Shown: positions 1 to 20,316 of the stretch, piece after piece | Position numbering within the stretch: the stretch's first letter is position 1 | Layout of the letters: every line of letters starts with the position of its first letter | From: a virus | Length of the DNA: 20,316 nucleotides | Direction: 5' to 3' (one strand) | Virus record (IMG/VR): IMGVR_UViG_3300032229_001122 | Span: 1-20,316 of that record | Notes under the pieces: model-generated | What the model saw: the letters and a program-made list of their open reading frames with translations, nothing else | Database searches by the model: none | Told to the model about the DNA's origin: nothing | Translations under genes and position numbers: made by a program

Positions 1-123
1 CCCTTCGCGCCGAGACCCTCAAGAATCACCTGGATACGGAAATTCCGCGTCGGAGTAAAGGTATTGAGAGCCTGAAGCGTCACATTGAACTGATAGAGAG
101 ATTCAATGTGTCTGAAGATGGGC
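1..123. repeat. Terminal direct repeat, copy 1 (circular overlap)
   Basis: These 123 bases are identical to the last 123 bases of the window. The repeat lies within the reading frame of the major capsid protein candidate, and joining the ends restores one uninterrupted frame. It is therefore best read as the overlap of a circular sequence, giving a unit genome of about 20,193 bp. A linear genome with direct terminal repeats would split the capsid gene and is less likely. Confidence 0.93.
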
Positions 124-800
124 AGACGATAGACATAGCCGAAACCGTTGTTGACCGCGGTTTCGTTCTGAATGATCGCTGTAGCCGCCGTTCCTGGAAT
201 GTAGGCCACGTTTCCGCTGTAGCCGCTCACGCCGTAGCGCGACGGGAACAGATAGAGCGGCCCCTCTTCAAAGGTCGTCTGGTTGTAGCTGAATTTGAGA
301 TAGATCGACTCAAAAGCCGCCTGAGCAAGGTTGGTAGCCTGGACATCATCAGAGGCTTTGAGCTGCGATCCGAGTCCGGGATTGTTGGCAAGACCGAGGT
401 TATTACCGGTCTGCGAGGTCGTATCAACCTGACCAGAGACCAGCACACGGACCTGGATTGACGTAATCCATGCTTCCTGGCTGGCAGGCAGCTGACGCGA
501 CACACTCATATTGGTGTCAATTTTCGTCTTTGTATACTGCGTCGTTCCGTTCATCTCGGTCGTCTGCTGACCGACCGGAGTCGCAAAAAGCTCAAACTCG
601 TTCGCGTTGAAAGCCGTCCCCGCCGTGACTCGCGCCACGTCGTACAAGCGAAGCCCGTAGAACGAAGCCAGACGAGCGCCGGGGTTGGCCTGAATGATCT
701 GCTGGATCATTCCATACTGAGCCGGATCGACATGATCCAACGTTGATTTTGGAGCCACGCCCGCGAAGTTCACGCGGTTGGCAACTGGCATATATGACAT
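1..800 (-). CDS. Major capsid protein candidate, double jelly-roll type (N-terminal and central part; gene continues across the circle junction)
   Basis: Read on the minus strand from ATG at 800 and continued after position 1 into 20193-20181, this gives a 270-aa protein with a TAG stop. GGAG lies about 8 bases before the ATG. Visible features are DTNM-like 'TNMSVSRQLP' at about 96-105, a beta-rich 'IQVRVLVSG' at 115-123, 'GPLYLFPSRYG' at 180-190, and a C-terminal 'LPIF..IESLYQFNV' then 'RIQVILEGLG' at 226-264. From memory, similar DTNM...LP and final Q-F-x-V / R-x-x-L-x-G strands occur in double jelly-roll capsid proteins of tailless bacterial viruses. The length is close to the roughly 269-aa PM2 P2. 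Neighbouring membrane and beta-rich proteins fit a virion operon. The fold is inferred, not shown. An alternative start is the ATG at 791. Confidence 0.66.
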   Translation of the reverse strand, partial: MSYMPVANRVNFAGVAPKSTLDHVDPAQYGMIQQIIQANPGARLASFYGLRLYDVARVTAGTAFNANEFELFATPVGQQTTEMNGTTQYTKTKIDTNMSVSRQLPASQEAWITSIQVRVLVSGQVDTTSQTGNNLGLANNPGLGSQLKASDDVQATNLAQAAFESIYLKFSYNQTTFEEGPLYLFPSRYGVSGYSGNVAYIPGTAATAIIQNETAVNNGFGYVYRLPIFRHIESLYQFNVTLQALNTFTPTRNFRIQVILEGLGAK

Positions 801-858
801 CTGATATTCTCCGCCTGTGGCTATTGCACGCCCTCAGGCATTAGGGGCCGTGAGGCCA

Positions 859-1515
859 TTACATTGACATGGCATGAGCTGACTGATCGTCAGCATACGC
901 GCCATAAGGGACCATCCCAGGAGTCTGAATTCCAATTCCATTCATGCCGCTCGAATAAGCACGGTAGGGGTTGAGTCCGGGATAAGCAATCCCGATGCCC
1001 TTCACGCCCTGCGCCGCTGGAGCAGTCTCGGCCGGTCGAGGCAGGAAGACGCTCTGAGCCGTCGGAAGGATGAACGAGTTGATTACCTTCCCGCCCGCAA
1101 CGGCCATGCCGCCCAGGGTGATATCCTGCGAGAATCGCGAGAGCGGGCCGATCTTGTTAGCCAGCATTCCGAGCAGGTAGGCAACGCCCGCGGTTCGAGC
1201 AGCATCCGCCAGAGCGCCAGGACCGCCGATTGACGGGACCATGGTTGTGACGAACTGGGTCAGAGCGCCGCCACCCGCGAGGGTGAGACCCTTCGTCAGC
1301 AGGCCAAAGCCGCCGCCAGGGTTGCGACGCCGCGCGCGCCGATGCATGACGCTGCGACGCCGTTTCGGAGCCGTCGAAGCTGAATATGGGTTATGTCGCC
1401 GGGTCCGCTTGACCCGGCTGGATGACTTGCGCTTACGCATTGATTTTCCTCCAGTAGGATTGACGATCAGCAGGGAAGCCGGTCCCGGATTGATCAGTTT
1501 GACTGTTTTGGCCAT
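859..1515 (-). CDS. Basic NP-motif protein with hydrophobic glycine-rich core, likely virion protein
   Basis: 218 aa. The start at 1515 is chosen because GGAGGG lies 6 bases upstream; a longer frame from 1551 lacks a site. Residues 26-65 are extremely basic (Arg/Lys/Ser). Asn-Pro occurs at 9, 19, 42, 65 and 182, several directly after arginines (RRHNP, RRRNP). Residues 67-150 are Gly/Ala-rich and hydrophobic, with two or three possible membrane segments (about 71-93, 100-120, 132-151). The C-terminus carries two tandem copies of a 20-aa repeat, GIGI..PG..PY.AY, at about 173-192 and 193-212. It lies immediately upstream of the capsid gene in the same operon. A nucleic-acid-binding or membrane-associated minor virion protein fits, but no function is known. 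Confidence 0.85.
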   Translation of the reverse strand: MAKTVKLINPGPASLLIVNPTGGKSMRKRKSSSRVKRTRRHNPYSASTAPKRRRSVMHRRARRRNPGGGFGLLTKGLTLAGGGALTQFVTTMVPSIGGPGALADAARTAGVAYLLGMLANKIGPLSRFSQDITLGGMAVAGGKVINSFILPTAQSVFLPRPAETAPAAQGVKGIGIAYPGLNPYRAYSSGMNGIGIQTPGMVPYGAYADDQSAHAMSM

Positions 1516-1547
1516 TATCGACCCTCCATCATTCCCGCGCGGGAATG

Positions 1548-2639
1548 TCAATTGTGAATGCCGTCCGCTTCGATGTGGTATGCTCCGCCGTCGATGTGCA
1601 TTAAGCCCTCTTCATCAATGCGAAGCGTTGGACGCTCTCCGGTCTCCTCTCCCAGCTCGTGAAAGTAAATTGCCGGGGTAGGTTGTCCCAGGTGCGGTTT
1701 ATCCGTCTCATATTCGACGCGAACGATCTCGCCACACTCTTCGCCCGCGGGGTTTGCCCTGTAGCGCCCGCCGACCACGTGAAGCCGTTGCTTGTGATCT
1801 GCTGCCAGAATCGGAGCAGCCGCGCCATTGAATTTCCATTTGCGCCCGTCGGCTGTCTCGATCAGACGAAGCGCGCCAAGTTTGGCGACATTTGCCGGAG
1901 TGCCAGTCGGAGCGCTCACCGAGTTTTGGCGCTTTGCACGTTTGCCGCTGAAGCGCTCAAATAGCTCTGTGGTTTTGCTTTTCGCTTTGCCAGGATTGCG
2001 CCGCGCACGTCCCACAATGCGAAGTGCACGGCCAGTAAAAGCATCTTGCAGCCGATGCCATTCACTTATCTCACGTGGAGACGCTTCGCCCGCCTCCACC
2101 AAATCACGGAGGAGGAGCGCGCGCGGGGAATCGATCGACCGCGCCGCACTAGTTAAACTGGCGGAACCCACGTAACGCCGGGTTCCGCGTCGGGGATTTT
2201 GACGATTCTTGGCCGCGCGACCTTGTGTGTACTTGGGGTTGATATATCTGCTATTACTCGGAACGTCCACCAACCATTCATCTGCATGTGTGTTCACGCC
2301 AGGCGGCTGTATGTTGGATGAAGAGCGCCATTGCTCGTCAGCTAAAATTAACTGCTTAACATCCCTTATTGCATAGTCTAAGGTAATCGCAACTTCTTCC
2401 GAAAGCTGATCCTTAGTGAGTTTATAACTATCAGTAGATTTTGGTAGCAAATATCTTAATTCACTAAACAGATTATTTTCCAAGTATCCCGTTGCATAAC
2501 GTTCAGCGTACGCACCATTCCGCTTGTACAGCTCTTTGAGTAGTCGGTAAAGCTCATTTGCTTTAGTTGGTTGAAGTTTTAGCAACTTTAGAAACTGTTT
2601 TTTTTCTGTGACGGTCGGATTATGTTTTCGTCGACGCAT
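1548..2639 (-). CDS. Modular NP-linker protein with a conserved phage-type C-terminal domain
   Basis: 363 aa, with AAGGGAAG just upstream of the ATG at 2639. The protein starts MRRRKHNP, and Asn-Pro recurs at 7, 134, 148, 215 and 296, mostly with neighbouring Arg/Lys. Residues 9-105 are helical and charged. Residues 165-210 form a second short helical block. Residues about 224-363 look like one domain ending 'GEETGERPTL....G....GGAYHIEADGI.N'. From memory this ending (G-E-x-x-G-x-R-P ... GG-x-Y ... GI-x-N, with an F-x-G near its start) recurs in uncharacterised phage proteins that also follow RRNP-like sequences; I know no function. The AT-richer 5' half (about 2230-2640) contrasts with the GC-richer 3' half, suggesting mosaic origin. 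It sits among virion genes. Confidence 0.88.
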   Translation of the reverse strand: MRRRKHNPTVTEKKQFLKLLKLQPTKANELYRLLKELYKRNGAYAERYATGYLENNLFSELRYLLPKSTDSYKLTKDQLSEEVAITLDYAIRDVKQLILADEQWRSSSNIQPPGVNTHADEWLVDVPSNSRYINPKYTQGRAAKNRQNPRRGTRRYVGSASLTSAARSIDSPRALLLRDLVEAGEASPREISEWHRLQDAFTGRALRIVGRARRNPGKAKSKTTELFERFSGKRAKRQNSVSAPTGTPANVAKLGALRLIETADGRKWKFNGAAAPILAADHKQRLHVVGGRYRANPAGEECGEIVRVEYETDKPHLGQPTPAIYFHELGEETGERPTLRIDEEGLMHIDGGAYHIEADGIHN

Positions 2640-2657
2640 GGATCTTCCCTTGTTAAC

Positions 2658-2774
2658 CTAAACTTCAAAAGTGATGTAATGCCCTGTTTTAGTGTAAACC
2701 GTAGGGTTGCCATACTCGTCCAGGTCTGAGCCGTAATAGGCTGGCATGCTATGCAAGCCGGGGCCGTATTTCAT
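2658..2774 (-). CDS. Small 38-aa protein between two NP-linker genes
   Basis: An uninterrupted frame from ATG at 2774 to TAG at 2658 fills the gap between its neighbours, starting 5 bases after the upstream stop and ending 18 bases before the next start. The product begins MKYGPGLHSMPAYYG and ends in YITFEV. It is rich in Tyr and Gly and contains a 'YGNPTVY' stretch, so it shares the Asn-Pro motif of its neighbours. No clear ribosome site lies before the ATG; translation could be coupled to the upstream gene. Tight packing on both sides and the non-random composition support it. It could otherwise be a decayed fragment of a neighbouring module. Confidence 0.6.
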   Translation of the reverse strand: MKYGPGLHSMPAYYGSDLDEYGNPTVYTKTGHYITFEV

Positions 2775-2779
2775 CGCAA

Positions 2780-3985
2780 CTAAAGTGTGTAGATTATGGC
2801 TGTCTCAACTTCCCCCCCTACTGGGCCGGTTACACTGTTTTTATACGAAAAAAACGGATGCCCGTCATACTCAATCACCGCCCCCGCGGGAAGCTTGGCA
2901 ACATACGCCCGAACCGCTGTCTCCTCTTCGTCACTCAGCCCCGAATAGTCCCCGTACTCAATAGCAGGGATTGCCCAGGTCGGAATCAATGCTTCGTCCC
3001 ACTCAGGGTTGTTGCGTCGAGCGTTTGATTTTACATACCGCGCTGGGTTTTCTTTATACCATGGCGGGCCGCTTATTGGAGTAGTCGCCGGAGCTTTATC
3101 ACTCTCTGTTATCGTATAACCATCACTGATAATCCGCTCTTCAGCTGCGTCAAAATAGGATTCAGCAACATCAAGCATATTATGGTCAAACCTGCGATAC
3201 ACTCCCCCATAGTACACATAATAATCTGTTTGAGGATCATTCAATTGCACCACGCCCAGCGTTAAAACAATCCTATTTCCATCTTCTAATCGTTCAAATA
3301 CCACCCTGCGCATTTGAAAAACTTCTCTAGGATTATGCACCTTTGCAACGTCTAGATGATCAATTTTTTCCGCGTGTATGTGAGTGCCATTTCTCCGCTT
3401 GCCGTTTGGCGTATACTTCATGGTCCCCAAGCTGGTATACAGCCCGGTATAGCTCTCAAAAATTGACCGCAATTGATCAGCATAGACGCCCTCAATCGCT
3501 TTGAGCGTTGTGAGCTTAAGACCGCGATATTTCGCAAATGTTACTGTGTACAAATCATCAGGAGTCAATTCAATCGTTACAAAATTTGCTCCGGATTTAT
3601 TCTGTGGAATTTTAAATTGTAGCTTGTTTGAGCTGCCAACAAAGCTGCGACTCCCTGTCATCGTCGCAAACCGATTTCCGCCTAGTTGCGCGAAAATAAT
3701 ATCAGCCACCGCCGGATTCGTTTTTCTTTTTCGCGCCGTCTCTAACCGTTCCGCATGATACTGTCTCTGACGTTCAATGCGTTCACGCGCCGCAATATCT
3801 TCTCCGCCTCGCCCCAAATACATATCAGAGCTAACTTTTTCCGCAACATACTTGCCAGCACCATATTGCGCTTTCGCGCGCTTCACTGCTTCGACACTGG
3901 TAAAGCCGGGATAGATGCCAACTTCCACGCCATCGCGTGAAATCAGATAACGAGGATTTGATCGTCGAGCCATTTTCCGTTTCAT
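2780..3985 (-). CDS. Multi-domain NP-linker protein (mosaic of mobile-element domains)
   Basis: 401 aa. The start at 3985 has GGAG 9 bases upstream. Asn-Pro occurs at 10, 90, 218, 313 and 326, usually after basic residues, and these sites appear to separate modules. Residues 12-88 are a charged block. Residues 92-187 contain 'AQLGGNRFATMTGSRSF', then N-F-V-x-I-x-L, DLY and TGLY, matching from memory a domain common in phage and plasmid proteins. Residues 220-310 are a beta-rich module with YYVYYGG. Residues 328-401 contain 'AIEYGDYSGLSDEEE' and '..PFFSYKNS', matching another small mobile-element domain I have seen as separate proteins. It is not a known enzyme. Its place between anchored virion proteins and the capsid gene suggests a virion component or packaged cargo. 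Confidence 0.88.
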   Translation of the reverse strand: MKRKMARRSNPRYLISRDGVEVGIYPGFTSVEAVKRAKAQYGAGKYVAEKVSSDMYLGRGGEDIAARERIERQRQYHAERLETARKRKTNPAVADIIFAQLGGNRFATMTGSRSFVGSSNKLQFKIPQNKSGANFVTIELTPDDLYTVTFAKYRGLKLTTLKAIEGVYADQLRSIFESYTGLYTSLGTMKYTPNGKRRNGTHIHAEKIDHLDVAKVHNPREVFQMRRVVFERLEDGNRIVLTLGVVQLNDPQTDYYVYYGGVYRRFDHNMLDVAESYFDAAEERIISDGYTITESDKAPATTPISGPPWYKENPARYVKSNARRNNPEWDEALIPTWAIPAIEYGDYSGLSDEEETAVRAYVAKLPAGAVIEYDGHPFFSYKNSVTGPVGGEVETAIIYTL

Positions 3986-3990
3986 TGATT

Positions 3991-4521
3991 TTATCTCCGC
4001 AAAAGAATCACCAGGCCAACCACGCCGAGCGCCGCCAATAACAAACCGCTGGTGGAGTCGACTCCAACCGCGCCGCCGATGGTCCCGCCAAGTTGATCGA
4101 GCACGTTGACCCCTGTCGAGCTGCGTGGCGCTGGGGTTGTCGTTATGGCCGTTGTCCCGCTGGCCGGGTCATATGTCTCCGCCGTAAATGTCACGCTGGC
4201 ATAATTCAGCTTTGAATAAAGCCCGGAGAGGACCGACAACACCGCATCTTTCAAGTGTTGATCAGACCCATACTCACGCCCGGAGTAGGATTCAACTACA
4301 ATGAACGGATTGACCACGCCCGCGAGTTGATAGACCTTGACCAGACCGCTGACATATCCGGAGCGCGAGAGCGCCGCTTCCATCCGCGTCATAAGATCGG
4401 GCAGCTCCTCAAACGACAAATCTGCGTACCAGTCAGACAATTCAACACCGAGTTGAAAAGGCGCGCCCTGATGGACCGGTCTACCTGTCAGCGCCCCAAG
4501 ACCATTATTTCCGCAACACAT
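3991..4521 (-). CDS. C-terminally membrane-anchored virion protein candidate
   Basis: 176 aa, starting directly after the stop of the preceding gene (TAAATG). An N-terminal CC-containing leader is followed by a mixed alpha/beta domain at about 20-120, a Thr/Ala/Pro-rich linker at 118-140, and a single C-terminal hydrophobic helix at about 157-174 ending ILLRR. The layout (folded domain, flexible linker, one C-terminal membrane helix, final arginines) is shared with the next three genes upstream. This is what I would expect for small proteins tying a protein shell to an internal membrane, as in PM2-type viruses. The sequence itself matches no family I recognise. Confidence 0.85.
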   Translation of the reverse strand: MCCGNNGLGALTGRPVHQGAPFQLGVELSDWYADLSFEELPDLMTRMEAALSRSGYVSGLVKVYQLAGVVNPFIVVESYSGREYGSDQHLKDAVLSVLSGLYSKLNYASVTFTAETYDPASGTTAITTTPAPRSSTGVNVLDQLGGTIGGAVGVDSTSGLLLAALGVVGLVILLRR

Positions 4522-5145
4522 TTACCGCCGCCTTCCCGAGGTCAGCGCGATCAACACCACGCCACCCGCGATTATTGCCCACCATGGGAACGCCGACTCC
4601 TGAACCGTATCGCCTGGCGTGATCTGTGAGACTGGTACACACCGCCCTTGAGTAATACTGAATTGCTGTCCCGCCGGACAAGGCGGAAGCTGACATTTTT
4701 TCGTTTTCGGATCGTACACAAACGGAGCAGGACAAGCACCCGCCGCGGTTGGTTTCGGTCTCGTCACTGGCCGCGCGGGGACCGCTCCTGCCGGTTGTCC
4801 TGGCCGCGTCGGAGCCGTAGGAGACGGAGCCGGGAAAGGCACACAAGCGTAGGGGTCATTGACAGGGTGATATTGGCCGCGAGGACAATAGCCCGGCAGT
4901 GGCGCTGTCGTCGGCTCTGTCGGACCATAGACCGGAAGATAATCCGCGGGATTGACGCTCGGTCCCCCGCCCCAAAATGAGCTACCAGAATCGAACGGAA
5001 ATCGATCCCACCATGCGCCCCAGTCCATCCCCGCGCCATCTCCGCCAGTGTCAGACGGCAAAAAGCCGAGTCCTCGCGCCGGTCGTGTCAGTACGCCAGG
5101 AACCATCACGGGTTGTCGGATTGGTCGTCGAGTGGGCCAGGCCAT
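4522..5145 (-). CDS. Proline- and cysteine-rich tail-anchored protein
   Basis: 207 aa. An Arg/Pro-rich N-terminus is followed by a Trp/Gly/Pro-rich stretch (about 40-75). There are three Cys-pair repeats of form C-P-x-G/P...C-x-P, with 12 to 13 residues between the cysteines, at about 87-101, 138-151 and 155-168; the first two are separated by a long Pro/Ala linker. The protein ends in a hydrophobic helix at about 186-203 followed by GRRR. The paired cysteines suggest disulfides, so the soluble part should face an oxidising compartment or the virion exterior. It belongs to the set of four consecutive C-terminally anchored proteins and is probably a virion surface or vertex component. Function unknown. 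Confidence 0.85.
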   Translation of the reverse strand: MAWPTRRPIRQPVMVPGVLTRPARGLGFLPSDTGGDGAGMDWGAWWDRFPFDSGSSFWGGGPSVNPADYLPVYGPTEPTTAPLPGYCPRGQYHPVNDPYACVPFPAPSPTAPTRPGQPAGAVPARPVTRPKPTAAGACPAPFVYDPKTKKCQLPPCPAGQQFSITQGRCVPVSQITPGDTVQESAFPWWAIIAGGVVLIALTSGRRR

Positions 5146-5149
5146 GAGA

Positions 5150-5617
5150 TTATCTCCGCATCAACGCAATAGCCGCGATAGCCGCGACTGGTATCCACAC
5201 CGGGACCGCAGTCCCGCCGAGATCAAATGTCGTCGAGAGGATGCCGCCGCCGCTGGCCGCGCTGGTTGCTGGCTGCGTCGAGATAGCAGGATAGACATTG
5301 AAGGTCGTCATGGCCGTGTAGATCTGGCCTTGTTCATCCTTGATCAAGATTTCCTTGATCCATGCTCCCTGCTGGTCCTCTGCCCAAGGCGCGCCCATCT
5401 CAATAGACGCGGTTCCATTGGCTTCCGTTTTATGGCCGTAACTGGCGTTTAGCTCACCGGTCGCTACGCCGTCTTTGTAGCTACTCCAAAATATTTCCGC
5501 GTTTGGTGGAGCGCCGATAATCAAATATCTGCCCTTCTGCCCAACGCGCTGCACCGGTGAATCAATCCGGAGTGTAATAGGTATAGCGCCGCCTAAGCCT
5601 CTCAAACGCCAAGCCAT
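5150..5617 (-). CDS. Ig-like beta-sandwich protein with C-terminal membrane anchor
   Basis: 155 aa. Residues about 14-108 look like an immunoglobulin-like beta-sandwich: 'GRYLIIGAPPNAEIFW', then YGHKT..NGTASIE, then G-A-W-I-K-E-I-L-I. From memory this GAP-N-A / YG-x-T-x-x-NG / GxW-x-E pattern is seen in adhesin-like and virion-decorating Ig domains. A Ser/Thr/Gly linker at 112-130 leads to one hydrophobic helix at about 136-153 ending ALMRR. It probably displays an Ig-like domain from a membrane, either binding the capsid shell or carbohydrate. The order and spacing with its neighbours indicate co-expression. Confidence 0.85.
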   Translation of the reverse strand: MAWRLRGLGGAIPITLRIDSPVQRVGQKGRYLIIGAPPNAEIFWSSYKDGVATGELNASYGHKTEANGTASIEMGAPWAEDQQGAWIKEILIKDEQGQIYTAMTTFNVYPAISTQPATSAASGGGILSTTFDLGGTAVPVWIPVAAIAAIALMRR

Positions 5618-5618
5618 A

Positions 5619-5924
5619 TTAACGACCCTTCTTTCCGATCAGGAACGCACCAACAACGATCCCGATCAAAGCCGCTGTCCACCAATTGATTGTAAATCCG
5701 CCCGCATTGACCGCGCCTGGCGACAGCGCCGGACCGCCTGGAGTGTTCACGATAGTTCCGCCAGGAACACCAACACCCCAACCACCGGAGCGAAATCGAG
5801 GATCATCGGGCGAAATATAAGCGCCCTGACCAACGCGCGCGCCAACGACATCAATTCCGCGATTGATGGTCTGACCCCACCAGGGCATGTCATACGAAGA
5901 AAACAAAGCGTTCGGATCTACCAT
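5619..5924 (-). CDS. Small tail-anchored protein
   Basis: 101 aa. The start at 5924 follows AGGA by 8 bases, and the upstream gene's TGA ends 2 bases before the ATG. The first 75 residues are Gly/Pro/Asp-rich and look extended. Residues about 78-97 form one membrane helix (WWTAALIGIVVGAFLIG) followed by KKGR. This is the first of four consecutive genes with the same C-terminal anchor plus basic tail, and it lies directly after the protease-like gene. A structural role in a membrane-containing virion is inferred. No family is recognised. Confidence 0.83.
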   Translation of the reverse strand: MVDPNALFSSYDMPWWGQTINRGIDVVGARVGQGAYISPDDPRFRSGGWGVGVPGGTIVNTPGGPALSPGAVNAGGFTINWWTAALIGIVVGAFLIGKKGR

Positions 5925-5925: not shown

Positions 5926-6465
5926 TCAGAATATCCTATACGTCCATTCAGAGTGCGCGGGGTTACGCCAATTCACGCCCGCGAGATGCAAGCCTTGTTG
6001 GCCATCGGCTGTCGGATCGAGGGCCACCCATTCACCATTTACCAGCGCCTCACAATAGACATGATCAAATTCAGAGCCGTTGAACTGCGCCACAAATCGA
6101 GGATGATGGCCAATGGCCGCGAGTAGCGCCGCGAGAAGAGTACATTTGTCGTCACAGTCACCCGATTGCAATTCGAGCGTGGTCATCGGATCTTGAACAC
6201 GTTCGGTCTCGACCGGATCGAGCCGATAAGCGATCTGATCCCGACAATAGGCCAAAAGCGCGGCCAGCTCTGCATGATGGTGATGGCCGAGGATGCCAGA
6301 ACAAATTGAGAGAGCAGCGCGCCGAATGCGCTCATCAAGATAGCCCGCATAATCCGGAGCAATCTCACCGCGTACCGCTGCCGCCATTGTGGCCAGTGTT
6401 CGCCGCGTCCCTTCTGCGCCGTCTGCAAGCCGCTCTCTCTGAATTGAAACTTGCCTGTTAAACAC
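5926..6465 (-). CDS. Transglutaminase-like cysteine protease
   Basis: 179 aa from GTG at 6465, chosen because TAGGG lies 7 bases upstream; a TTG at 6534 (202 aa) is possible, and the frame is open further. Residues about 60-155 match the transglutaminase-like fold: 'LQSGDCDDKCTLLAALLAAIG' at 99-119 with catalytic Cys104, 'FDHVYCEALVNGEW' with His135, and 'VALDPTAD' with Asp150. All three triad residues are present. In phages such proteins are common near structural genes, and in bacteria the fold acts as a peptidase or amidase. Being first in the late operon suggests a processing enzyme for virion precursors or a peptidoglycan-active virion enzyme; neither is shown. It also carries an RNP motif near the C-terminus (167-169). 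Confidence 0.87.
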   Translation of the reverse strand: MFNRQVSIQRERLADGAEGTRRTLATMAAAVRGEIAPDYAGYLDERIRRAALSICSGILGHHHHAELAALLAYCRDQIAYRLDPVETERVQDPMTTLELQSGDCDDKCTLLAALLAAIGHHPRFVAQFNGSEFDHVYCEALVNGEWVALDPTADGQQGLHLAGVNWRNPAHSEWTYRIF

Positions 6466-6620
6466 ACCATTTGCCCTAACAAATGCGAACAATTCCGCAA
6501 GAGCAGACTCAACCCGTAAGACGTATTTTGTCAATGGCGTTTTTTTCGGAAGCGTGGCAACATCAATAGCGCGCGAATGGCGCGAACAATGGCAAAACAA
6601 TGTAATCACATGGTGAAAAA
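6466..6620. promoter_or_regulatory. Divergent intergenic region between the two transcription blocks
   Basis: These roughly 155 bases separate the first minus-strand gene from the first plus-strand gene and should hold both promoters. On the minus strand there is a perfect TTGACA beginning at 6534, but no acceptable -10 box at 16-18 bases. No sigma70-like pair is clear in either direction, so late transcription may need an activator or another sigma factor. A tiny frame ATG-GTG-AAA-AAA-TGA at 6610-6624 overlaps the start of the plus-strand gene. Confidence 0.5.
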
Positions 6621-14355: not shown

Positions 14356-14525
14356 TTCCACGTTTTGAGTAGTTCGGCAAATGCCGCCTCATTCGCCTTT
14401 GTCTGGCCGTCCGCCTGTTCGAGCAGCGCCGCGGCATCGAGACCGCGCCGCTTTAGTTCTCGCTGAAGTTCGACCAGCGCCCGGAGCAGCACAACTGTGA
14501 TCAAGTCGAGTGCCTGTCCTGTCAT
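14343..14525 (-). CDS. Small coiled-coil protein, end of the late operon
   Basis: 60 aa, ATG overlapping the upstream stop (ATGA). A hydrophobic start 'ALDLITVVLLRALVELQRELKRRG' is followed by 'AAALLEQADGQTKANEAAFAELLKTW'. Both are amphipathic helices of coiled-coil type. The first helix might dip into the membrane but is interrupted by Arg and Glu. As last gene of the lysis cassette it may be a lysis accessory. No family recognised. Confidence 0.72.
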   Translation of the reverse strand: MTGQALDLITVVLLRALVELQRELKRRGLDAAALLEQADGQTKANEAAFAELLKTWKARE

Positions 14526-14992
14526 TTGCCACCACCTTTCACCAGCTTTGCCGTTCTGATGGTTTCATCGAGCAGCGCAAGGATCGTTTCAACCTGGCGC
14601 AAATTGCGCGCAATCTCCGCCCGCTGGCCGTCGCTGAGTTTGGTAAATTCTGGATCTGAGAGACGCGACGTGACAACCTGACGCGCGCTGCTGACAATCG
14701 CCAGTAATCGCGCCTGGCCGTCACCCGTCAATCTGAGAGATCCATCCGGAGTGAGATATCCGCGGGCCGTCGAGATCAGATCTCCATTGAGCCGGTTGAC
14801 CTGCTGCAAGTCCTCGACGATCCGCGCGCCTGTCTCTTTGCTGATGGTCCCCGTCTCAACCTGAGAGGAGACCAGCGCGCCCGCCGTATCGAGATAGCCC
14901 GCAACACGATCGACATTCACGGCAAACTGTTTTGACTGGTCGCATGATCCGCTGACCAACAACAGAGCGATCATTACGAATTTACTAGCCAT
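14522..14992 (-). CDS. Lipoprotein-like helical protein of the lysis cassette
   Basis: 156 aa. The N-terminus is a short signal: MASK, a hydrophobic FVMIALLLV, then S-G-S-C-D. The Cys at about 17 could be lipidated, but the -3 position is Ser, so the lipobox is imperfect. The +2 residue is Asp, which in enterobacteria retains lipoproteins in the inner membrane. The rest is long helices (25-60, 60-80, 100-150) rich in Gln, Leu and Asp. Its position after a holin-like and a coiled-coil membrane gene suggests an outer spanin-like or related lysis role. It is larger than most outer spanins, so this is tentative. Confidence 0.75.
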   Translation of the reverse strand: MASKFVMIALLLVSGSCDQSKQFAVNVDRVAGYLDTAGALVSSQVETGTISKETGARIVEDLQQVNRLNGDLISTARGYLTPDGSLRLTGDGQARLLAIVSSARQVVTSRLSDPEFTKLSDGQRAEIARNLRQVETILALLDETIRTAKLVKGGGK

Positions 14993-15188
14993 TGTTGGAG
15001 GTCTCCGGAAGGGGCGATTTTTTCAGGTATGCAATCACGCCAATTAGCGCGCCCGCGCCCGCCACGCTGGCCAGTTTGCCGAGACCGGTCGAGAAGTTGA
15101 ATTCGACAGGATCGACTAGAATGACTGAAAGGGAATTGACCGCGCCGCCAATGAGCGCCGCCAGCAAGCCATGTAACCAAATATTCAT
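14985..15188 (-). CDS. Two-helix membrane protein, holin candidate
   Basis: 67 aa. GAGGAC precedes the ATG, which overlaps the upstream stop (ATGA). Two membrane segments: 'WLHGLLAALIGGAVNSLSVILV' at about 4-25 and 'KLASVAGAGALIGVIAYLKK' at about 38-57. A charged tail with two Lys follows. Size, helix number, Gly/Ala richness and position two genes from a muramidase match class II-type holins, which let the muramidase reach the cell wall. Function is inferred from context. Confidence 0.72.
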   Translation of the reverse strand: MNIWLHGLLAALIGGAVNSLSVILVDPVEFNFSTGLGKLASVAGAGALIGVIAYLKKSPLPETSNNG

Positions 15189-15469
15189 TTGTGGTCCTCG
15201 TGTTGAAGTAGGGTTTTCACATCCGCCTTGATCTCATCGAGCGTGTCAGATAACGACTCAAGGCGCTTTTCAAAATCCGCGTTTCTGTGAGCGCTGGTGT
15301 CTGTCACATGACCGCCCACGGTTGCTTCGAGAATCGACAAACGCCGGGAATGGTTTTTTGAGTGAAACACCAACCGCGCATAACCGATAATATTGCCGAC
15401 GATAATTCCCGCCGCCGTGAGCGCCTCGCCCACGTGATCAGATAGCCAATTCTCCATGCGAGTTTCCAT
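15185..15469 (-). CDS. Single-helix membrane protein with coiled coil, spanin- or holin-like
   Basis: 94 aa. A short N-terminal tail, one membrane helix at about 16-34 ('TAAGIIVGNIIGYARLVF'), then a long heptad-type helix from 42 to 90 ('RLESLSDTLDEIKADVKTLL'). This layout resembles inner-membrane spanins (N-terminal anchor plus periplasmic coiled coil) and also some phage hemolysin/holin accessory proteins. Lies between the muramidase and the holin candidate with overlapping genes. The exact role is open. Confidence 0.74.
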   Translation of the reverse strand: METRMENWLSDHVGEALTAAGIIVGNIIGYARLVFHSKNHSRRLSILEATVGGHVTDTSAHRNADFEKRLESLSDTLDEIKADVKTLLQHEDHK

Positions 15470-15470
15470 G

Positions 15471-16091
15471 TCAATCCCAGGCTAACGCCAGGAAGAGCAA
15501 GCCGCCAATAATCAGCACGGGGAGAATCTTCGAGCCGGTAGAGTCCTCTGACGCGATTGCCGGGGGTGGAGCGGAAACCGGAGCAGTAGCAGCCGGAGCA
15601 GAATCGCCGCGCGCCTGGCGTTCGAATTCCTGCATCTCCGCCAGAGTATAAATGCCATCACGCGCGAAAAGATCCGCCTCGGCCGCTCGCCTGTTTATCA
15701 ATCCCTGAGAGCGCTGGCCGCCGGACGTAATCGGATGTTCACGCAATCGCCGCGCCGCGCCTGCGTAGTCCCCGGAATTTAGCAACGCCAGGTGAGACGA
15801 GTTTCGAAAATTCCCCGCGCCCCAATTGAAAACGAGCGAAGTCAGCGCATCAAACTGAGAGGAGGTCAATGGAACCTGCACAAGCTGGTTTACTACACTG
15901 GCTGCCCACGCGGCATCTTTCGCCAGAAGCGCCGCCGCCTCTGGCTCTGACATTTCGGTAAATTTTTCGCCGGGAAGAATGACATGGCCATAACCAATAG
16001 TCATATTGCCATCGCCGTCATTATATGGTTTGCCGCGATAGCGTTCCCAGCGTTTTAGAAAATTTAGTCCGCCTTCGCTTAATGCCTGCAT
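15471..16091 (-). CDS. GH24 muramidase (T4-type lysozyme) with C-terminal membrane anchor
   Basis: 206 aa, GAGGT 6 bases before ATG. Residues 1-145 are a T4-lysozyme-type glycoside hydrolase that cuts the glycan strands of peptidoglycan. The catalytic set is Glu16, Asp25 and Thr31, with the same 9- and 6-residue spacing as E11-D20-T26 in T4, followed by IGYGH. Other landmarks are 'SSQFDALTSLVFNWGAG' and 'RLREHPITSGGQRSQGLINRRAAE'. There is no N-terminal signal. After a Pro/Ala linker (155-180) comes a single hydrophobic helix at about 186-204 ending LAWD. A C-terminal anchor is unusual for a soluble endolysin and suggests a membrane- or virion-attached enzyme. Confidence 0.95.
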   Translation of the reverse strand: MQALSEGGLNFLKRWERYRGKPYNDGDGNMTIGYGHVILPGEKFTEMSEPEAAALLAKDAAWAASVVNQLVQVPLTSSQFDALTSLVFNWGAGNFRNSSHLALLNSGDYAGAARRLREHPITSGGQRSQGLINRRAAEADLFARDGIYTLAEMQEFERQARGDSAPAATAPVSAPPPAIASEDSTGSKILPVLIIGGLLFLALAWD

Positions 16092-16093
16092 GA

Positions 16094-16390
16094 CTATACC
16101 TCTGGCGCATTTGTGACGGCTGACACCATGTCAATTACGTCCTGAGTCACCACAGTAAACCGCGTAGCTTCCACGCGCGCTTTTAGTGTCGACCATTCTT
16201 GTGAATCTAGCTCAATCTGATCATCGGCGCGCTTTAGCTTATTCGCCACGCTGACAAGCGAGGCTAGTTCGTTAACTGTTGCCCCGTCTGGCACAAATTC
16301 AAGGAATGCAATAAACTGCGTCTTATAGTCCAACACTTGCACTCCCGTTGACGTAACCATGTCTACACGTTTCAGCTTAATTGATTTCAC
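16094..16390 (-). CDS. Small protein following the spike gene, possible accessory
   Basis: 98 aa; the ATG lies 14 bases inside the end of the spike gene. The sequence begins basic (MKSIKLKRV), then reads 'LASLVSVANKLKRADDQIELDSQEWSTLKARVEATRFTVVTQDVIDMV'. The pattern of a helix, 'L-E-L-D-x-x-E-W-x-x-L-K', and a final helix is one I recall from small genes of phages, often near tail fibres or structural genes, without known function. Coupling to the spike suggests a chaperone or structural partner, but that rests only on position. Confidence 0.78.
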   Translation of the reverse strand: MKSIKLKRVDMVTSTGVQVLDYKTQFIAFLEFVPDGATVNELASLVSVANKLKRADDQIELDSQEWSTLKARVEATRFTVVTQDVIDMVSAVTNAPEV

Positions 16391-18497
16391 TGGTAATCAC
16401 CTTGCTTTCTATATCGGTCGTTCTAGCGTGTAACTCTTTAATGGCGTTTACACACGCATAAATTAAATCAGAGGCATTCAACGTGAAAATATTTGTTGTC
16501 TCTGTGTCACTTGGGTTTAACAGCGCCGGAATTTCCTGAATCAATTCCGGCATAATTGATAGGACATCCTGCGCAATTAGTGAAACATCTGTTCGGCCTG
16601 TCACCGTGCCTGCCAAGCCGTTATACTCAAACCTTTTCGGCGCTAACTGTAACAGTGTATCTAGTCCGCGTTCGTAATCGCGAATATTTGTTTTCACTCG
16701 CTGATCAGAAATCACCGTCCAGGTAGCAGATCCGGCATAATTTGTAAGACCCGCTGACACGTACACGCCCGCGGTAAATGAGCTGCCAAGCACCGTCCCA
16801 ACAAAAATGCCATATGCGTTTGTACTTGCAACGTAGTTCACGTTTAACCCGTAACCGTTTGTAATAGTTCCGGACCCGCGATTTACAAAAGCGCGGAAAC
16901 CATTTGCTTCTGGTGTTGTTCCCGTTGTGAGAATTTCTACTTGTCCTTGAATCCCGCTCATTCGGTTTGTTACCGATCCCGCGCCCAAGTACGCATAGCA
17001 GATCAGAGAGACAATTTCCGACACGCTTCCCGAACCATTATGGCGCGCGAAATTGGCTAACCCCTGCAACACGCCACCATTAAACGCGCTGTTATGAATG
17101 CAAGCATTTGCGCCGCCTGCGTACACTGCACCGGGGTTAGTGGCCGCCGTGTTGACTACCGTCAATTGTGTGCTTGCTGCAAAGGTTGTGCCAGTTGTGT
17201 TAGTGGTATTTCTGTTGGCGTTATATGCCAACATTTCCACACCGTTCACACTGCCAGCAATCTCAAGCGCCGCCGTCACGCCTGTTGTTGTCCCAAGGTT
17301 TAGCGCGCCTCCGTTCGCGCCAGAAAGAACGCGAATTCGACCGGTAGCCAATCGAGCTAACTGAACATCCGGAGCAACGGTGGGACTAGATGTCCACCCA
17401 AGTTCATACGCTTGGTTTAAAAGAAAATTGCCGTTGGCCGCGTGTCCCCAGGCAACATTAGTCCCGCCCGCGAATAATGTAAGATGGCTGCCTGACGAAT
17501 CTACGCCAATCCCGCTACCGGTAGCAATGCCGCCAACCACAAACCCCGGACTGCCTGCGCTTTGTCCAGGCACTACAAATCGATAATTGCCGGTTGCTGG
17601 CGTCGCCGCTATACCTGCGAGAAGCGTCCCGCTCGCGTTCTCATAACGGAAAGGGAAGTTATTTGTCAGACTCGACAACACTCCCTGTTGCAGGGTGAGC
17701 AGCGCCGCCGCATTGTCTCCGCCCTGACGCACCAAAATGATTTCCGCGGTTTGCGCCGCGTTGCCCGTCACTCGAAGCGCCGTCACCGCCGCGCCGGTAG
17801 TGACAAGATCCACCGTCGGAGATATGGCCGCGTTGAAAACAAAACTGTTCGAGCCGCCGAACGTCCCGCCACCCGCGTTATACTGAATGTTGGTGCTGAC
17901 TCCGCCAGGAGAAGCGCCGCCACTGGCCGTCAATTGGCCCGCTGCCAACGTGAGACCCGCGCCGATGCTGATCTCCTCGACCGCTCCCGTGCCCGCGGTA
18001 GTCCGTCCGAGTATTCTGGCTGTCGATTGTGTGAGGCCGCTCGATGTGATCAGACCGGACAGCGCCACACCCGTCACCGCCAGAGATCCCGCCGCCAGGC
18101 TGAGATTCGCGCCGACTGTGATCTCCTCGACCGCTCCCGTGCCCGCGGTAGTCCGTCCGAGTATTCTGGCCGTCGATTGTGTGAGGCCGCTCGATGTGAT
18201 CAGACCCGCGGTAACAACATTGGTCCACGCTCCACCATTCTCAGAGACCTTGAAATCTGTCCCATCAAAATAGATTCCGCCCTGACTCGCCCCCGATACG
18301 GCTGGCGCGCTTCCTGGCGCTTGAAATCGGATTGCTCTATCAGTGATGTTTTTAGTCACCACTGCAAACAGATCGTTCAGCGTCGATTTAACATTCTGGC
18401 TGGCCGGGACCGCTGACAGATCCACCAGAGGAACAAGATCTGTTGGAATCTGCCCGCCCGCCAAATCTGGCATGGCTGTAATTTTTTCGCTGGCCAT
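16377..18497 (-). CDS. Receptor-binding spike/fibre with C-terminal S74 self-cleaving chaperone
   Basis: 706 aa; the ATG at 18497 is preceded by GAGGA. The N-terminus (1-60) carries 'DLAGGQIPTDLVPLVDLS', typical of fibre attachment regions. Residues 98-197 are two tandem 50-aa repeats ('SGLTQSTARILGRTTAGTG'). The middle is a Gly/Ser/Thr/Asn-rich beta-structured shaft. The last 110 residues are a peptidase S74 intramolecular chaperone: 'SDQRVKTNIRDYERGLD' with nucleophile Ser597 and Lys602, then L-I-A-Q-D-V and a C-terminal coiled coil. In known fibres this domain trimerises the shaft and then cuts itself off before the Ser. Here it probably forms trimeric host-binding spikes at capsid vertices. 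Confidence 0.92.
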   Translation of the reverse strand: MASEKITAMPDLAGGQIPTDLVPLVDLSAVPASQNVKSTLNDLFAVVTKNITDRAIRFQAPGSAPAVSGASQGGIYFDGTDFKVSENGGAWTNVVTAGLITSSGLTQSTARILGRTTAGTGAVEEITVGANLSLAAGSLAVTGVALSGLITSSGLTQSTARILGRTTAGTGAVEEISIGAGLTLAAGQLTASGGASPGGVSTNIQYNAGGGTFGGSNSFVFNAAISPTVDLVTTGAAVTALRVTGNAAQTAEIILVRQGGDNAAALLTLQQGVLSSLTNNFPFRYENASGTLLAGIAATPATGNYRFVVPGQSAGSPGFVVGGIATGSGIGVDSSGSHLTLFAGGTNVAWGHAANGNFLLNQAYELGWTSSPTVAPDVQLARLATGRIRVLSGANGGALNLGTTTGVTAALEIAGSVNGVEMLAYNANRNTTNTTGTTFAASTQLTVVNTAATNPGAVYAGGANACIHNSAFNGGVLQGLANFARHNGSGSVSEIVSLICYAYLGAGSVTNRMSGIQGQVEILTTGTTPEANGFRAFVNRGSGTITNGYGLNVNYVASTNAYGIFVGTVLGSSFTAGVYVSAGLTNYAGSATWTVISDQRVKTNIRDYERGLDTLLQLAPKRFEYNGLAGTVTGRTDVSLIAQDVLSIMPELIQEIPALLNPSDTETTNIFTLNASDLIYACVNAIKELHARTTDIESKVITSEIN
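17969..18058 (-). repeat. Tandem repeat in the spike gene, copy 2
   Basis: Ninety bases nearly identical to 18119-18208, offset by 150 bp (50 codons). Together they encode two 50-aa modules at the start of the shaft. Near-identity at DNA level indicates a recent duplication and a likely site of length variation. Confidence 0.9.
18119..18208 (-). repeat. Tandem repeat in the spike gene, copy 1
   Basis: Partner of the repeat at 17969-18058; the two differ at only a few bases over 90. It encodes the first 50-aa shaft module of the spike. Confidence 0.9.
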
Positions 18498-18499
18498 TT

Positions 18500-18679
18500 T
18501 TAGCAGTCCTCAAGCAATATCACGTCATTAATCGACGCGGCATCTTCTAACAAAATATAATCAGGAGACCCGGTTTCCAGCAAAATACCGCACGTAGGAC
18601 CAAGCGCCCCAACTCCGCCGGGCCGAATTGGCCAGGCTTCGTCATTATCCGTGTGTCTCAACTCCCAGGCCGTTGGCAT
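18500..18679 (-). CDS. Small ILLE-repeat structural protein
   Basis: 59 aa from ATG 18679 (GGA upstream, 2 bases after the preceding stop). It ends one base-pair step before the spike start. The C-terminal half has three ILLE units ('GILLETGS', 'YILLEDAA', 'VILLEDC') at 11- to 12-residue spacing, like one face of a small beta-helix or needle. The N-terminal 'TDNDEAWPIRPGG' is polar. Similar I-L-L-E-D-G runs are common from memory in short phage structural proteins. A connector between the shell and the spike is a reasonable guess. Confidence 0.8.
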   Translation of the reverse strand: MPTAWELRHTDNDEAWPIRPGGVGALGPTCGILLETGSPDYILLEDAASINDVILLEDC

Positions 18680-18681
18680 GG

Positions 18682-19173
18682 CTAAAATCCTGTGGTGAGC
18701 GCCTGAGTCTCCTGCAACGAATCGACCACGCGTGCCGGGACAAAATACCCATAAGCGATCGTCCGGACAATCCATGTCCCAGTTGCCGGTATTGGCGTTG
18801 TCGGAGTGAAGATCAGCCGCGCATAGCGCTCTGATGGAAAAATCAGCAGTACATCAGTATCAAGATAGGCTGTTGCCCAATCTTGACCAGCAGCCGTTAA
18901 ACTTGGACTATCCGCAATATTCCACACTGACGCATGAGGTGGGAACGTGCGATAGAAACAATAATCGGGCATGGTCTCGTCAGCATTGGTGTAATAGACC
19001 TGAGTGCGCAACACCACCAAGCTCGAATTGGTTGGAACACGGGTCGCCGCCGCCACAAACGATCCGTAATCGGCCGTCAGATCATAATCGATGCCGAACA
19101 TGTGCGGGGTAATCTCATGATATTTGACCCCACTCATCTCCGCGAGTAGGCGCATGTGTCTAAGCTGCAACAT
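18682..19173 (-). CDS. Beta-rich minor structural protein
   Basis: 163 aa from ATG 19173, chosen for GGGGAGGTG upstream; it overlaps the previous gene by 14 bases. The sequence is beta-rich: 'SLVVLRTQVYYTNADET', 'VLLIFPSERYARLIFTPTTP', then T-G-T-W-I-V-R-T-I-A-Y-G-Y-F-V-P. The last two strands (aligned as R-x-x-x-L-x-F-T...T-W-x-V) resemble the C-terminal strands of the two upstream proteins. No enzyme motif. It is probably a penton, spike-base or other minor capsid protein. Confidence 0.84.
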   Translation of the reverse strand: MLQLRHMRLLAEMSGVKYHEITPHMFGIDYDLTADYGSFVAAATRVPTNSSLVVLRTQVYYTNADETMPDYCFYRTFPPHASVWNIADSPSLTAAGQDWATAYLDTDVLLIFPSERYARLIFTPTTPIPATGTWIVRTIAYGYFVPARVVDSLQETQALTTGF

Positions 19174-19594
19174 TGATTGCACCTCCCCGCAAGTCTCTGA
19201 CACCAACGAGAGTTAGAGTGTCTGCTGGATTCCCCGCCGGAATTATGTAGCCTGTTGGGACCGTTAACGCGATTTGAATCCGCTTGCCAGGTGAAATTAC
19301 ATAGGGAGCGGGCAACATCCGGACAGGTGAAACAGATCCGGTATCAATACCCGCCACCGCCTCAATAGGCGTACTGTAGAAGGGCGACCAGATATCCGGA
19401 GTCCGCGATTCACACAGCTGAACGGTGAATCTGGGCAGCGCGCCAGTGTACGAAATCACAATGTGAAAGCCCAGCAAATTTACAGCCTCGTCCACCGGGG
19501 TCGAATACCATAGCGAACGCCCTGAAATGGCTCTACGCACGGCGCTAGTGCCGAGCGGAATAGATTCAAACCACGGAATGAGAGACGCAATCAT
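19160..19594 (-). CDS. Beta-rich minor capsid protein candidate, paralogue of the upstream gene
   Basis: 144 aa, AGGTGA just before the ATG. The protein begins hydrophobic ('MIASLIPWFESIPLG'). The rest is beta-rich and ends 'APYVISPGKRIQIALTVP', then T-L-T-L-V-G-V-R-D-L. This ending aligns with the upstream protein's 'CPYFLSRQGKLQMDFTN', then S-I-T-W-V-G-L-K-L-F, indicating a paralogous pair. Both look like the final strands of a single jelly roll. In tailless viruses such proteins form pentons or spikes. The inference is from pattern and position. Confidence 0.83.
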   Translation of the reverse strand: MIASLIPWFESIPLGTSAVRRAISGRSLWYSTPVDEAVNLLGFHIVISYTGALPRFTVQLCESRTPDIWSPFYSTPIEAVAGIDTGSVSPVRMLPAPYVISPGKRIQIALTVPTGYIIPAGNPADTLTLVGVRDLRGGAINVAA

Positions 19595-19601
19595 AATTCA
19601 C

Positions 19602-20060
19602 CTAAACAAACAGTTTCAGGCCGACCCACGTAATTGACGCTGAAGCACCTGCCAGGCCGGTCGCGCTGTTCGTGAAATCCATCTGGAGTTTTCCCTGACG
19701 GCTCAGGAAGTAGGGACATACCAGAGACAGTATCGGCATCACTTGCGTGGACGCGCCTGCAATGGCTGTTACTGGCGTTCCGCTGGTCGTCGAGCCTGTT
19801 GCCGCCTGTAGCACATTCCAGCCGTAACCGTTACCAGTGTCAGTAATCCTGAGATTTACCTGACTGTTACTGAAATTAGCATGCGCGCCGAACAGGAGCG
19901 CATCACTGTCGACCTGTGGCGTGAAACAGGTGACACGCTCTGACGCCGTAGAACCATCGAAGCCGATCAGCGAAGTCAAATAGAGTGGTTGCCAGGTTTT
20001 ATACTTGCTGAGAATCGCCTTGACGTGATCCGCAAAATATCCCGAAAAAAGACCGTACAT
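19602..20060 (-). CDS. Beta-rich minor capsid protein candidate
   Basis: 152 aa, AAGGG 7 bases before the ATG; first gene after the major capsid protein. Residues 40-150 are beta-rich: 'FTPQVDSDALLFGAHANFS', 'RITDTGNGYGW', T-P-V-x-A-I-A-G, 'PYFLSRQGKLQMDFTNSA', and final S-I-T-W-V-G-L-K-L-F-V. From memory, DTG-x-G-Y, TPV-x-AIAG and T-x-VGLKL appear in unnamed phage structural proteins. The C-terminal strand pair also resembles the end of the major capsid candidate (Q-F-x-V...R-I-Q-V-I-L-E-G). It is likely a single-jelly-roll vertex or minor shell protein. Confidence 0.84.
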   Translation of the reverse strand: MYGLFSGYFADHVKAILSKYKTWQPLYLTSLIGFDGSTASERVTCFTPQVDSDALLFGAHANFSNSQVNLRITDTGNGYGWNVLQAATGSTTSGTPVTAIAGASTQVMPILSLVCPYFLSRQGKLQMDFTNSATGLAGASASITWVGLKLFV

Positions 20061-20180
20061 TGGATCGCCCTTTCATAATTGCCAGGCGTTGCACCTGGCC
20101 GGGGGTTTTGTCCAGTGAGAGGAAATTGACCGCGCACAATGCGCACCCCTAACCCGTCGAGCAGACTCACAAGGAGTCTA
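20061..20180 (-). other. Intergenic leader between the capsid gene and the next gene, with three small hairpins
   Basis: This is the longest gap inside the late operon (120 bases). It contains AGACTC/GAGTCT (20163-20179), GCGCA/TGCGC (near 20132-20145) and GCCAGG/CCTGGC (near 20081-20099) inverted repeats and no T run. It may be a processing or stability region that sets the ratio of capsid protein to downstream minor proteins. No promoter is recognised. Confidence 0.5.
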
Positions 20181-20316
20181 CTAGCCCGTGACGCCCTTCG
20201 CGCCGAGACCCTCAAGAATCACCTGGATACGGAAATTCCGCGTCGGAGTAAAGGTATTGAGAGCCTGAAGCGTCACATTGAACTGATAGAGAGATTCAAT
20301 GTGTCTGAAGATGGGC
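20181..20316 (-). CDS. Major capsid protein candidate, C-terminal end (same gene as 1-800)
   Basis: On the minus strand this stretch enters from the terminal repeat and ends with TAG at 20183-20181. In the closed circle only 20193-20181 adds new sequence (last residues GVTG-stop) to the frame that starts at 800. The rest duplicates 1-123. It encodes the final beta-strands 'TPTRNFRIQVILEGLGAKG' of the 270-aa capsid candidate. Confidence 0.66.
   Translation of the reverse strand, partial: PIFRHIESLYQFNVTLQALNTFTPTRNFRIQVILEGLGAKGVTG
20194..20316. repeat. Terminal direct repeat, copy 2 (circular overlap)
   Basis: Exact copy of bases 1-123. See the first copy for interpretation. Confidence 0.93.

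Follow-up and report, generated by a model that had tools for sequence, protein, structure and literature searches.

The window, by which we mean the entire IMG/VR record IMGVR_UViG_3300032229_001122 (20,316 nucleotides), is probably (at about 0.72) the genome of an uncultured, tailless prokaryote virus with a membrane and a single jelly-roll shell, akin to Salisaeta icosahedral phage 1 (SSIP-1) and replicating in theta mode with a lambda-O-like initiator, as judged from its genes and from a predicted structure of a relative's capsid protein. Membrane and jelly-roll shell would probably lie around the DNA. A previous sequence-only reading had proposed an undescribed tailless lineage. The tailless lineage is supported, and sequence searches of 50,697 phage records with four of its proteins (capsid, transglutaminase-like, 152-aa and 363-aa) yielded no match; however, the lineage is not entirely without relatives, as its gene order and several of its proteins match SSIP-1.

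That reading had also taken the genome to be a complete circle of about 20.2 kb closed inside a gene, and both points were confirmed. An exact terminal identity reduces the record to a circle of 20,193 bases, and the open reading frame of the capsid candidate crosses the junction, running from 800 to 1 and then on to its stop.

1 to 123, no strand: terminal repeat, copy 1, exactly identical to 20194 to 20316, closing the circle
20194 to 20316, no strand: terminal repeat, copy 2, exactly identical to 1 to 123
1 to 800, continuing over the junction to 20181, minus strand: major capsid protein candidate, 270 aa, motif DTNMxx[AS][GR]QxP; a relative's protein was modelled
20181 to 20193, minus strand: final codons of the capsid gene past the junction, in the frame reading across it, stop at 20181

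Exact terminal repeats (62–427 bases) were also found in five of six close IMG/VR relatives of 18–22 kb. Contig G001 is not closed. The breakpoints of the closed relatives differ in position relative to the capsid gene, which fits circles that were cut open and not a fixed terminal repeat. Rfam families and tRNA genes were not detected in the window.

Upstream of the capsid gene lie the mosaic, membrane-anchored and transglutaminase-like proteins.

859 to 1515, minus strand: basic membrane protein rich in Asn-Pro, encoded immediately upstream of the capsid gene, with a counterpart in deep relatives
1548 to 2639, minus strand: 363-aa Asn-Pro mosaic protein whose C-terminal domain recurs in the 36.8-kb relatives
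2780 to 3985, minus strand: Asn-Pro mosaic protein, 401 aa, with a phrog_9437 module and a DUF6926-like module (sub-threshold)
3991 to 4521, minus strand: 176-aa protein, C-terminal membrane anchor
4522 to 5145, minus strand: 207-aa protein, C-terminal membrane anchor
5150 to 5617, minus strand: 155-aa protein, C-terminal membrane anchor
5619 to 5924, minus strand: 101-aa protein, C-terminal membrane anchor, ending GKKGR
5926 to 6492, minus strand: transglutaminase-like (papain-fold) protein, Pfam PF01841, 5e-11
6621 to 7913, plus strand: 430-aa protein; its counterpart adjoins the transglutaminase-like gene in deep relatives

Several window proteins carry one C-terminal hydrophobic segment each. 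The transglutaminase-like protein retains the Cys-His-Asp triad, with an uncertain start codon (GTG 6465 or TTG 6492 likely), and the 430-aa protein is perhaps a scaffold or late regulator. On the other side of the junction, the virion operon continues to the spike and lysis genes.

14522 to 14992, minus strand: 156-aa lipoprotein-like protein, lipobox-type N terminus
14985 to 15188, minus strand: 67-aa membrane protein, lysis region
15185 to 15469, minus strand: holin-like protein (weak; phrog_10340, E 0.004)
15471 to 16091, minus strand: phage lysozyme, C-terminal membrane anchor, Pfam PF00959, 4e-33
16094 to 16390, minus strand: conserved 98-aa protein
16377 to 18497, minus strand: 706-aa spike/fibre with an S74 chaperone domain at its C terminus, Pfam PF13884, 6.6e-12
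18500 to 18679, minus strand: conserved 59-aa protein
18682 to 19206, minus strand: virion-operon protein, 163–174 aa (orthologues begin at MLQL)
19160 to 19594, minus strand: virion-operon protein, 144 aa
19602 to 20060, minus strand: virion-operon protein, 152 aa, weakly like SSIP-1 gp47; candidate penton or minor capsid protein

The proposed search for relatives sharing the capsid gene was run and identified, besides the six close ones, deeper relatives by capsid profile, about a dozen in total. In seven genomes the order is strictly conserved: transglutaminase-like, small C-terminally anchored, Asn-Pro mosaics, Asn-Pro membrane protein, capsid, proteins of ~150 aa, spike with lysozyme. The deeper relatives comprise linear genomes of 15.7–17.1 kb, which encode a viral family B DNA polymerase and bear inverted terminal repeats, as well as one circular genome of 16.8 kb and two genomes of 36.8 kb. 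All of them share capsid and transglutaminase-like proteins and most also the Asn-Pro-rich basic membrane protein; the transglutaminase-like gene was present independently in four of four records recovered by capsid profile or motif and in contig L034.

The capsid candidate is conserved at 70–91%, and relatives' capsid proteins are shorter (215–238 aa). One relative's capsid protein gave a predicted structure with pLDDT 70.5 and pTM 0.67, and single jelly-roll capsids made up many of its matches in a fold search against the PDB. The top PDB match was 6oj0 (SPV1; E 3e-3, TM 0.31/0.39), with all TM-scores below 0.5 and none in the PDB reaching E 0.001, and the top BFVD match was I1ZBH9 (211 aa, E 1.1e-6), which may be SSIP-1 gp46. 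Going by this model, the capsid fold of the lineage is likely a single jelly roll. SPV1 (Sulfolobus polyhedral virus 1, Portogloboviridae) has circular double-stranded DNA of ~20 kb; it differs from the window in its archaeal host, and its score is weak although it is the best PDB match. A model of the window's own capsid protein, built with eight close homologues, was unusable (pLDDT 48.6), and a fold search from it is meaningless. A PDB sequence search with the 8-sequence capsid profile found no match, SPV1 included, and neither did a capsid search in plasmids.

SSIP-1 has two types of major capsid protein (MCP) and a membrane, and has so far been an orphan with hardly any relatives and almost no sequence similarity in GenBank (review, PMC6356626). 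Like the window, it has a circular genome with transglutaminase-like, small anchored, ENP-motif and capsid-type proteins in matching order; unlike the window, it is 43.8 kb long, carries an ATPase (gp40), an integrase and an invertase, and has two capsid-type proteins of ~211 aa, and the early genes are unrelated. Its gp34, labelled structural, is transglutaminase-like by Pfam and ranked first of 57 in hhalign with the corresponding profile of the window lineage (E 7e-19), with the caveat that transglutaminase-like proteins form a large superfamily. The 152-aa family placed gp47 at rank 1 (E 0.0013). Capsid similarity is barely above noise: the alignments ranked gp46 first or second of 57 at E 0.03–0.05, noise level by sequence alone. 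With the largest alignment it ranked first of 57 (E 0.03; one of 60 column shuffles scored higher), and this weak match (E 0.03–0.04) was register-consistent over ~160 columns. The motif [RHK]ENP is limited in SSIP-1 to gp41, gp43 and gp44, just upstream of gp45/46, and the window counterpart is 859–3985. Profiles of the 430-aa and Asn-Pro membrane proteins did not recover gp33 and gp44 from SSIP-1. The orphan salt-lake phage is now tied to environmental genomes as small as 15.7 kb.

The description of a virion operon without tailed-phage genes was borne out. Lysozyme, an S74 spike-like protein and C-terminally anchored proteins are present, and portal, terminase, tape-measure or tail-tube matches, such homologues having been named as evidence against it, were not found in a PHROGs search of 30 window proteins; significant tail-labelled matches were limited to fibre-type (S74 protein) and baseplate-lysozyme (lysozyme domain). 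By PHROGs and Pfam, neither the Caudoviricetes markers (terminase, portal, HK97 capsid) nor, with a Walker A scan in addition, the FtsK/HerA packaging ATPase that marks Helvetiavirae was found in the window. The scan detected no Walker A/P-loop motif in the conserved genes and thus no P-loop ATPase or counterpart of gp40 there; SSIP-1, which has gp40, is the single isolated representative of its assemblage. Nor was an ATPase found in contigs G009 and L034, which have DNA_pol_B_2 and inverted terminal repeats of 123/149 bases; the single long-ORF Walker A match of L034 sits inside the DNA polymerase, as does the motif in G009. The missing ATPase poses a packaging question.

PM2 and FLiP, which had served as yardsticks, are not supported in that role and are not the closest relatives. 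A much enlarged corticovirus- or finnlakevirus-like genome with a double jelly-roll capsid, possibly single-stranded as in FLiP, is unlikely. FLiP (Finnlakeviridae) and PM2 (Corticoviridae) are circular and tailless, the 270-aa capsid is near the 269 aa of PM2 P2, the order of capsid, several ~150-aa proteins, spike and lytic enzyme is that of FLiP, and a packaging ATPase is also missing in FLiP and Odin groups (PMC5894146). However, hhalign of the capsid profile, a comparison of sequence profiles only, matched neither the FLiP nor the PM2 P2 MCP (E 0.34 and 0.22), the window is twice as big, its initiator is O-like with iterons with no rolling-circle initiator found in the window, and the relatives have a type B DNA polymerase and capsids of just 215–238 aa, one of which resembles single jelly-roll capsids.

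It is quite improbable that the window is a phage satellite or phage-plasmid dependent on a helper for capsid and packaging. In that case the absence of portal and terminase would be uninformative on morphology. The 20-kb size, the packaging genes not found and a replication gene of phage-plasmid type fit this reading, but the window encodes a late operon of its own, in which lysozyme, spike and anchored proteins accompany a conserved capsid candidate and which matches structural genes of the isolated virus SSIP-1. The terminase large subunit requires a P-loop. A tailed or otherwise known virus with hallmark genes too divergent for HMM search is very improbable: most proteins lack a family match, and S74 and fibre-type matches are typical of tail fibres, but portal, terminase and tape matches were absent among the 30 proteins, no conserved gene has a P-loop motif, and the layout is conserved with tailless SSIP-1.

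Among other known systems, Matsushitaviridae and Sphaerolipoviridae (P23-77, SH1; Helvetiavirae) are tailless with an internal membrane and single jelly-roll capsids, and their genomes, circular or linear with inverted terminal repeats, are of similar size to those of the window lineage (PMC8328091 and general knowledge). They have two single jelly-roll MCPs and the FtsK/HerA ATPase; the window has at least one capsid family, likely single jelly-roll. The Tectiviridae set (protein-primed DNA polymerase, inverted terminal repeats, FtsK-type ATPase) is absent in the window.

The remaining genes lie on the plus strand.

7910 to 8200, plus strand: conserved 96-aa protein
8193 to 8471, plus strand: conserved 92-aa protein
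9870 to 10115, plus strand: 81-aa Cys/His-rich protein
10207 to 11064, plus strand: lambda-O/DnaD-like replication initiator, phrog_9773, 7.5e-36; the frame opens at TTG 10096, likely start ATG 10207
10545 to 10664, plus strand: iteron array within the initiator gene, made of 5.4 copies of a 22-bp unit; candidate origin
12475 to 12705, plus strand: conserved 76-aa protein
13998 to 14342, plus strand: conserved 114-aa protein, phrog_2859 domain, E 8e-28

Replication looks theta-type, with iterons of ~22 bp inside the initiator's own gene; iterons of 22–23 bp occupy the matching place in seven genomes. Across the lineage the replication modules differ, and one virion module goes with at least two strategies, an O-like initiator or a B-family polymerase with inverted terminal repeats.

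The most novel element is the mosaic proteins with their Asn-Pro-separated building blocks. The phrog_9437 module of the 401-aa protein is a stand-alone protein in phage phiM12, and module borders fall at basic-Asn-Pro motifs (median 4 residues, versus 26 by chance), which suggests that the mosaic proteins form a polyprotein that the transglutaminase-fold enzyme might cleave. A literature search on an Asn-Pro cleavage motif in virions gave nothing relevant.

In the tailless, SSIP-1-akin virus, the capsid protein would stand on an internal membrane held by anchored proteins, with the spike at the vertices. Double-stranded DNA would be replicated from a lambda-O-type start with host helicase and polymerase and packaged without a virus-encoded ATPase or with a borrowed host one, and lysozyme, holin-like and lipoprotein genes would lyse the host. 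The mosaic proteins may be virion cargo that enters with the genome, basic-Asn-Pro linkers being cut or joining them. More tentatively, a widespread membrane-containing lineage can be envisaged in which one virion module unites O-like circular, B-polymerase linear and 36.8-kb genomes, a virion transglutaminase-fold protease cuts a polyprotein of interchangeable small proteins into swappable delivered cargo, and packaging of the ~20 kb of DNA needs no viral ATPase. It is a testable idea that a small tailless virus might bring an exchangeable protein set into its host by way of the Asn-Pro mosaic.

Among 380 genomes of one phylum sample, the capsid profile matched one, a 2-Mb bin titled Patescibacteria that holds two all-viral contigs. 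This likely reflects binning or co-occurrence, and therefore no host is assigned. Charybdis elements are 4.6-kb marine elements without a link to the window in the abstract of PMC12324425. The DTNMxx[AS][GR]QxP capsid motif, the transglutaminase-like gene and the Asn-Pro proteins provide markers for finding more members.

The first and last 123 bases of the window, an IMG/VR record, were identical in a terminal comparison, and the molecule is therefore a circle of 20,193 bases. The open reading frame of the capsid candidate continues across the circle junction and yields a product of 270 aa. Exact terminal repeats of 62–427 bases were found in five of the six close relatives, and the seven contigs open at different points relative to the capsid gene, which is the pattern of assembled circles. 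These circles span 17.7–22.4 kb, and G001, a close relative of 21.6 kb, is unclosed. The sequence-only reading of a molecule closed inside a gene by its terminal repeat was thus right. A 171-codon open frame at 20139–461 on the plus strand lies antisense to the capsid gene, has partial counterparts in several relatives and probably just mirrors conserved coding of the capsid on the opposite strand.

The late gene order is fixed across the window and its six close relatives.

Genes of the window (late genes on the minus strand, in order downstream from 6492)
From 6492, minus: transglutaminase-like protein (Pfam, 5e-11)
Next, minus: four proteins, each with one C-terminal hydrophobic segment, then basic residues
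Next, minus: two Asn-Pro-rich mosaic proteins
Next, minus: basic Asn-Pro membrane protein
Next, minus: capsid candidate, 270 aa
Next, minus: proteins of 152, 144 and 174 aa
Next, minus: 59-aa protein
Next, minus: spike, 706 aa, with S74 chaperone domain
Next, minus: 98-aa protein
Next, minus: lysozyme (4e-33)
Next, minus: holin-like protein, small membrane protein and lipoprotein-like protein, in that order
Plus: 430-aa protein and small conserved proteins
Plus: replication initiator (phrog_9773, 7.5e-36)

Searches of PHROGs with 30 window proteins matched neither a portal or terminase nor a tape measure or tail tube. The earlier proposal of a tailless virus is well supported. No Walker A motif was found in any conserved gene. 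A 229-aa membrane protein (8607–9296) is shared by the window with its nearest relative alone; this region holds different genes in the other genomes and is a possible swap site.

The same reading had used PM2 and FLiP as yardsticks. This comparison was not borne out, and Salisaeta icosahedral phage 1 (SSIP-1, NC_017983, taxonomically unclassified) should replace both, as indicated by matches of several proteins and the gene order. SSIP-1 gp34 is transglutaminase-like and ranked first of 57 proteins against the transglutaminase profile of the window family (E 7e-19), and gp47 was the top match for the 152-aa family (E 0.0013). SSIP-1 gp46 ranked first or second against the capsid profile (E 0.03–0.04, about 160 columns in register), with one of 60 column shuffles scoring higher. 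The order in SSIP-1 is gp33 (420 aa), gp34, small anchored proteins, the gp40 ATPase, gp41–gp44 and gp45–gp48, many products of this stretch being labelled structural, and the [RHK]ENP motif is confined to gp41, gp43 and gp44. According to a review, SSIP-1 combines two types of capsid protein with a membrane and is almost without relatives (PMC6356626). With moderate confidence, the window, its relatives and SSIP-1 belong to one assemblage.

The capsid candidate is common to the six relatives (77–91% identity). A structure model of the window capsid alone was too poor for use. With a wider alignment, the capsid of the deeper relative G010 gave a model dominated by beta strands (pLDDT 70.5, pTM 0.67). 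Its best PDB match was 6oj0 of Sulfolobus polyhedral virus 1 (E 3e-3, probability 0.93, TM 0.31/0.39), and many further matches were single jelly-roll capsids, with legume lectins among the weaker ones. The best BFVD match was I1ZBH9 (211 aa, E 1.1e-6, probability 1.00, TM 0.42/0.47), which may be SSIP-1 gp46, a protein of equal length; gp35 likewise has 211 aa. The model points to a single jelly-roll fold, which is at most likely because the TM-scores lie under 0.5.

In a 2-Mb metagenome bin titled Patescibacteria, the capsid profile detected two members of the assemblage that are different viruses, the closely related L023 and the more remote L034 (E 4e-5); a binning error is likely, as most other listed genomes of the sample have about 0.5–1.1 Mb. 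A pattern search for the motif shared by these capsids, DTNMxx[AS][GR]QxP, led to four further IMG/VR genomes, all four of which encode the transglutaminase-like protein, which was not part of the pattern. The alignment of eleven capsid sequences has ten invariant columns, and the lysozyme, the C-terminal domain of the mosaic proteins and, weakly, the Asn-Pro membrane protein recur in deep relatives. G009 (15,658 bases) and L034 (17,149 bases) end in exact inverted repeats (123 and 149 bases, respectively) and encode a DNA_pol_B_2 polymerase; they combine a tectivirus-like replication module (viral B-family DNA polymerase, inverted terminal repeats) with the same virion module. Terminal repeats measure 97 bases in G010 (16.8 kb) and 127 bases in G011 (36.8 kb), and G008 (36.8 kb) is unclosed. 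Both 36.8-kb relatives have more than one capsid-motif protein each; G008 also encodes an integrase and a resolvase, and G011 a DnaB helicase together with a P-loop-like protein of large size.

Across eight genomes, the mosaic proteins contain 1.18 Asn-Pro pairs per 100 aa, where their composition predicts 0.21; for other conserved genes the observed and expected values are 0.41 and 0.24. At least one Lys or Arg lies within the four residues before the pair in 67 of 70 sites. At 859–3985 of the window and in relatives, these basic-Asn-Pro motifs are regularly spaced and mark module borders. Borders, defined as the ends of local alignments between genomes, lie a median of 4 residues from the nearest Asn-Pro (26 for random positions) and within 12 residues in 75% (28% for random positions), statistics that are descriptive only because the genomes are related and the edges not independent. 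Independent support for the motif as a border comes from phrog_9437, which Sinorhizobium phage phiM12 encodes as a separate protein of 100 aa, as this module begins exactly at an Asn-Pro site: its residue 2 pairs with residue 89 of the window protein, right at Thr-Asn-Pro (51% identity). The simplest reading is that the mosaic consists of small proteins linked by a common boundary motif. Asn-Pro would be a putative cleavage site and the transglutaminase-fold protein, which keeps the catalytic Cys, His and Asp in the window, a candidate protease acting on it. Alternatively, the motif might be a targeting tag or a recombination-prone linker.

A repeat array with units of 22–23 bp lies at the corresponding position of the initiator gene in all seven close genomes, and the unit sequences differ. 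In the window (10545–10706), these in-gene iterons (22 bp, 5.4 copies) are followed by 11-bp ACAGAGATTAC repeats. The lambda O gene likewise carries a repeat array inside the gene. This arrangement points to a theta-type double-stranded replicon and makes a FLiP-like single-stranded lifestyle less likely.
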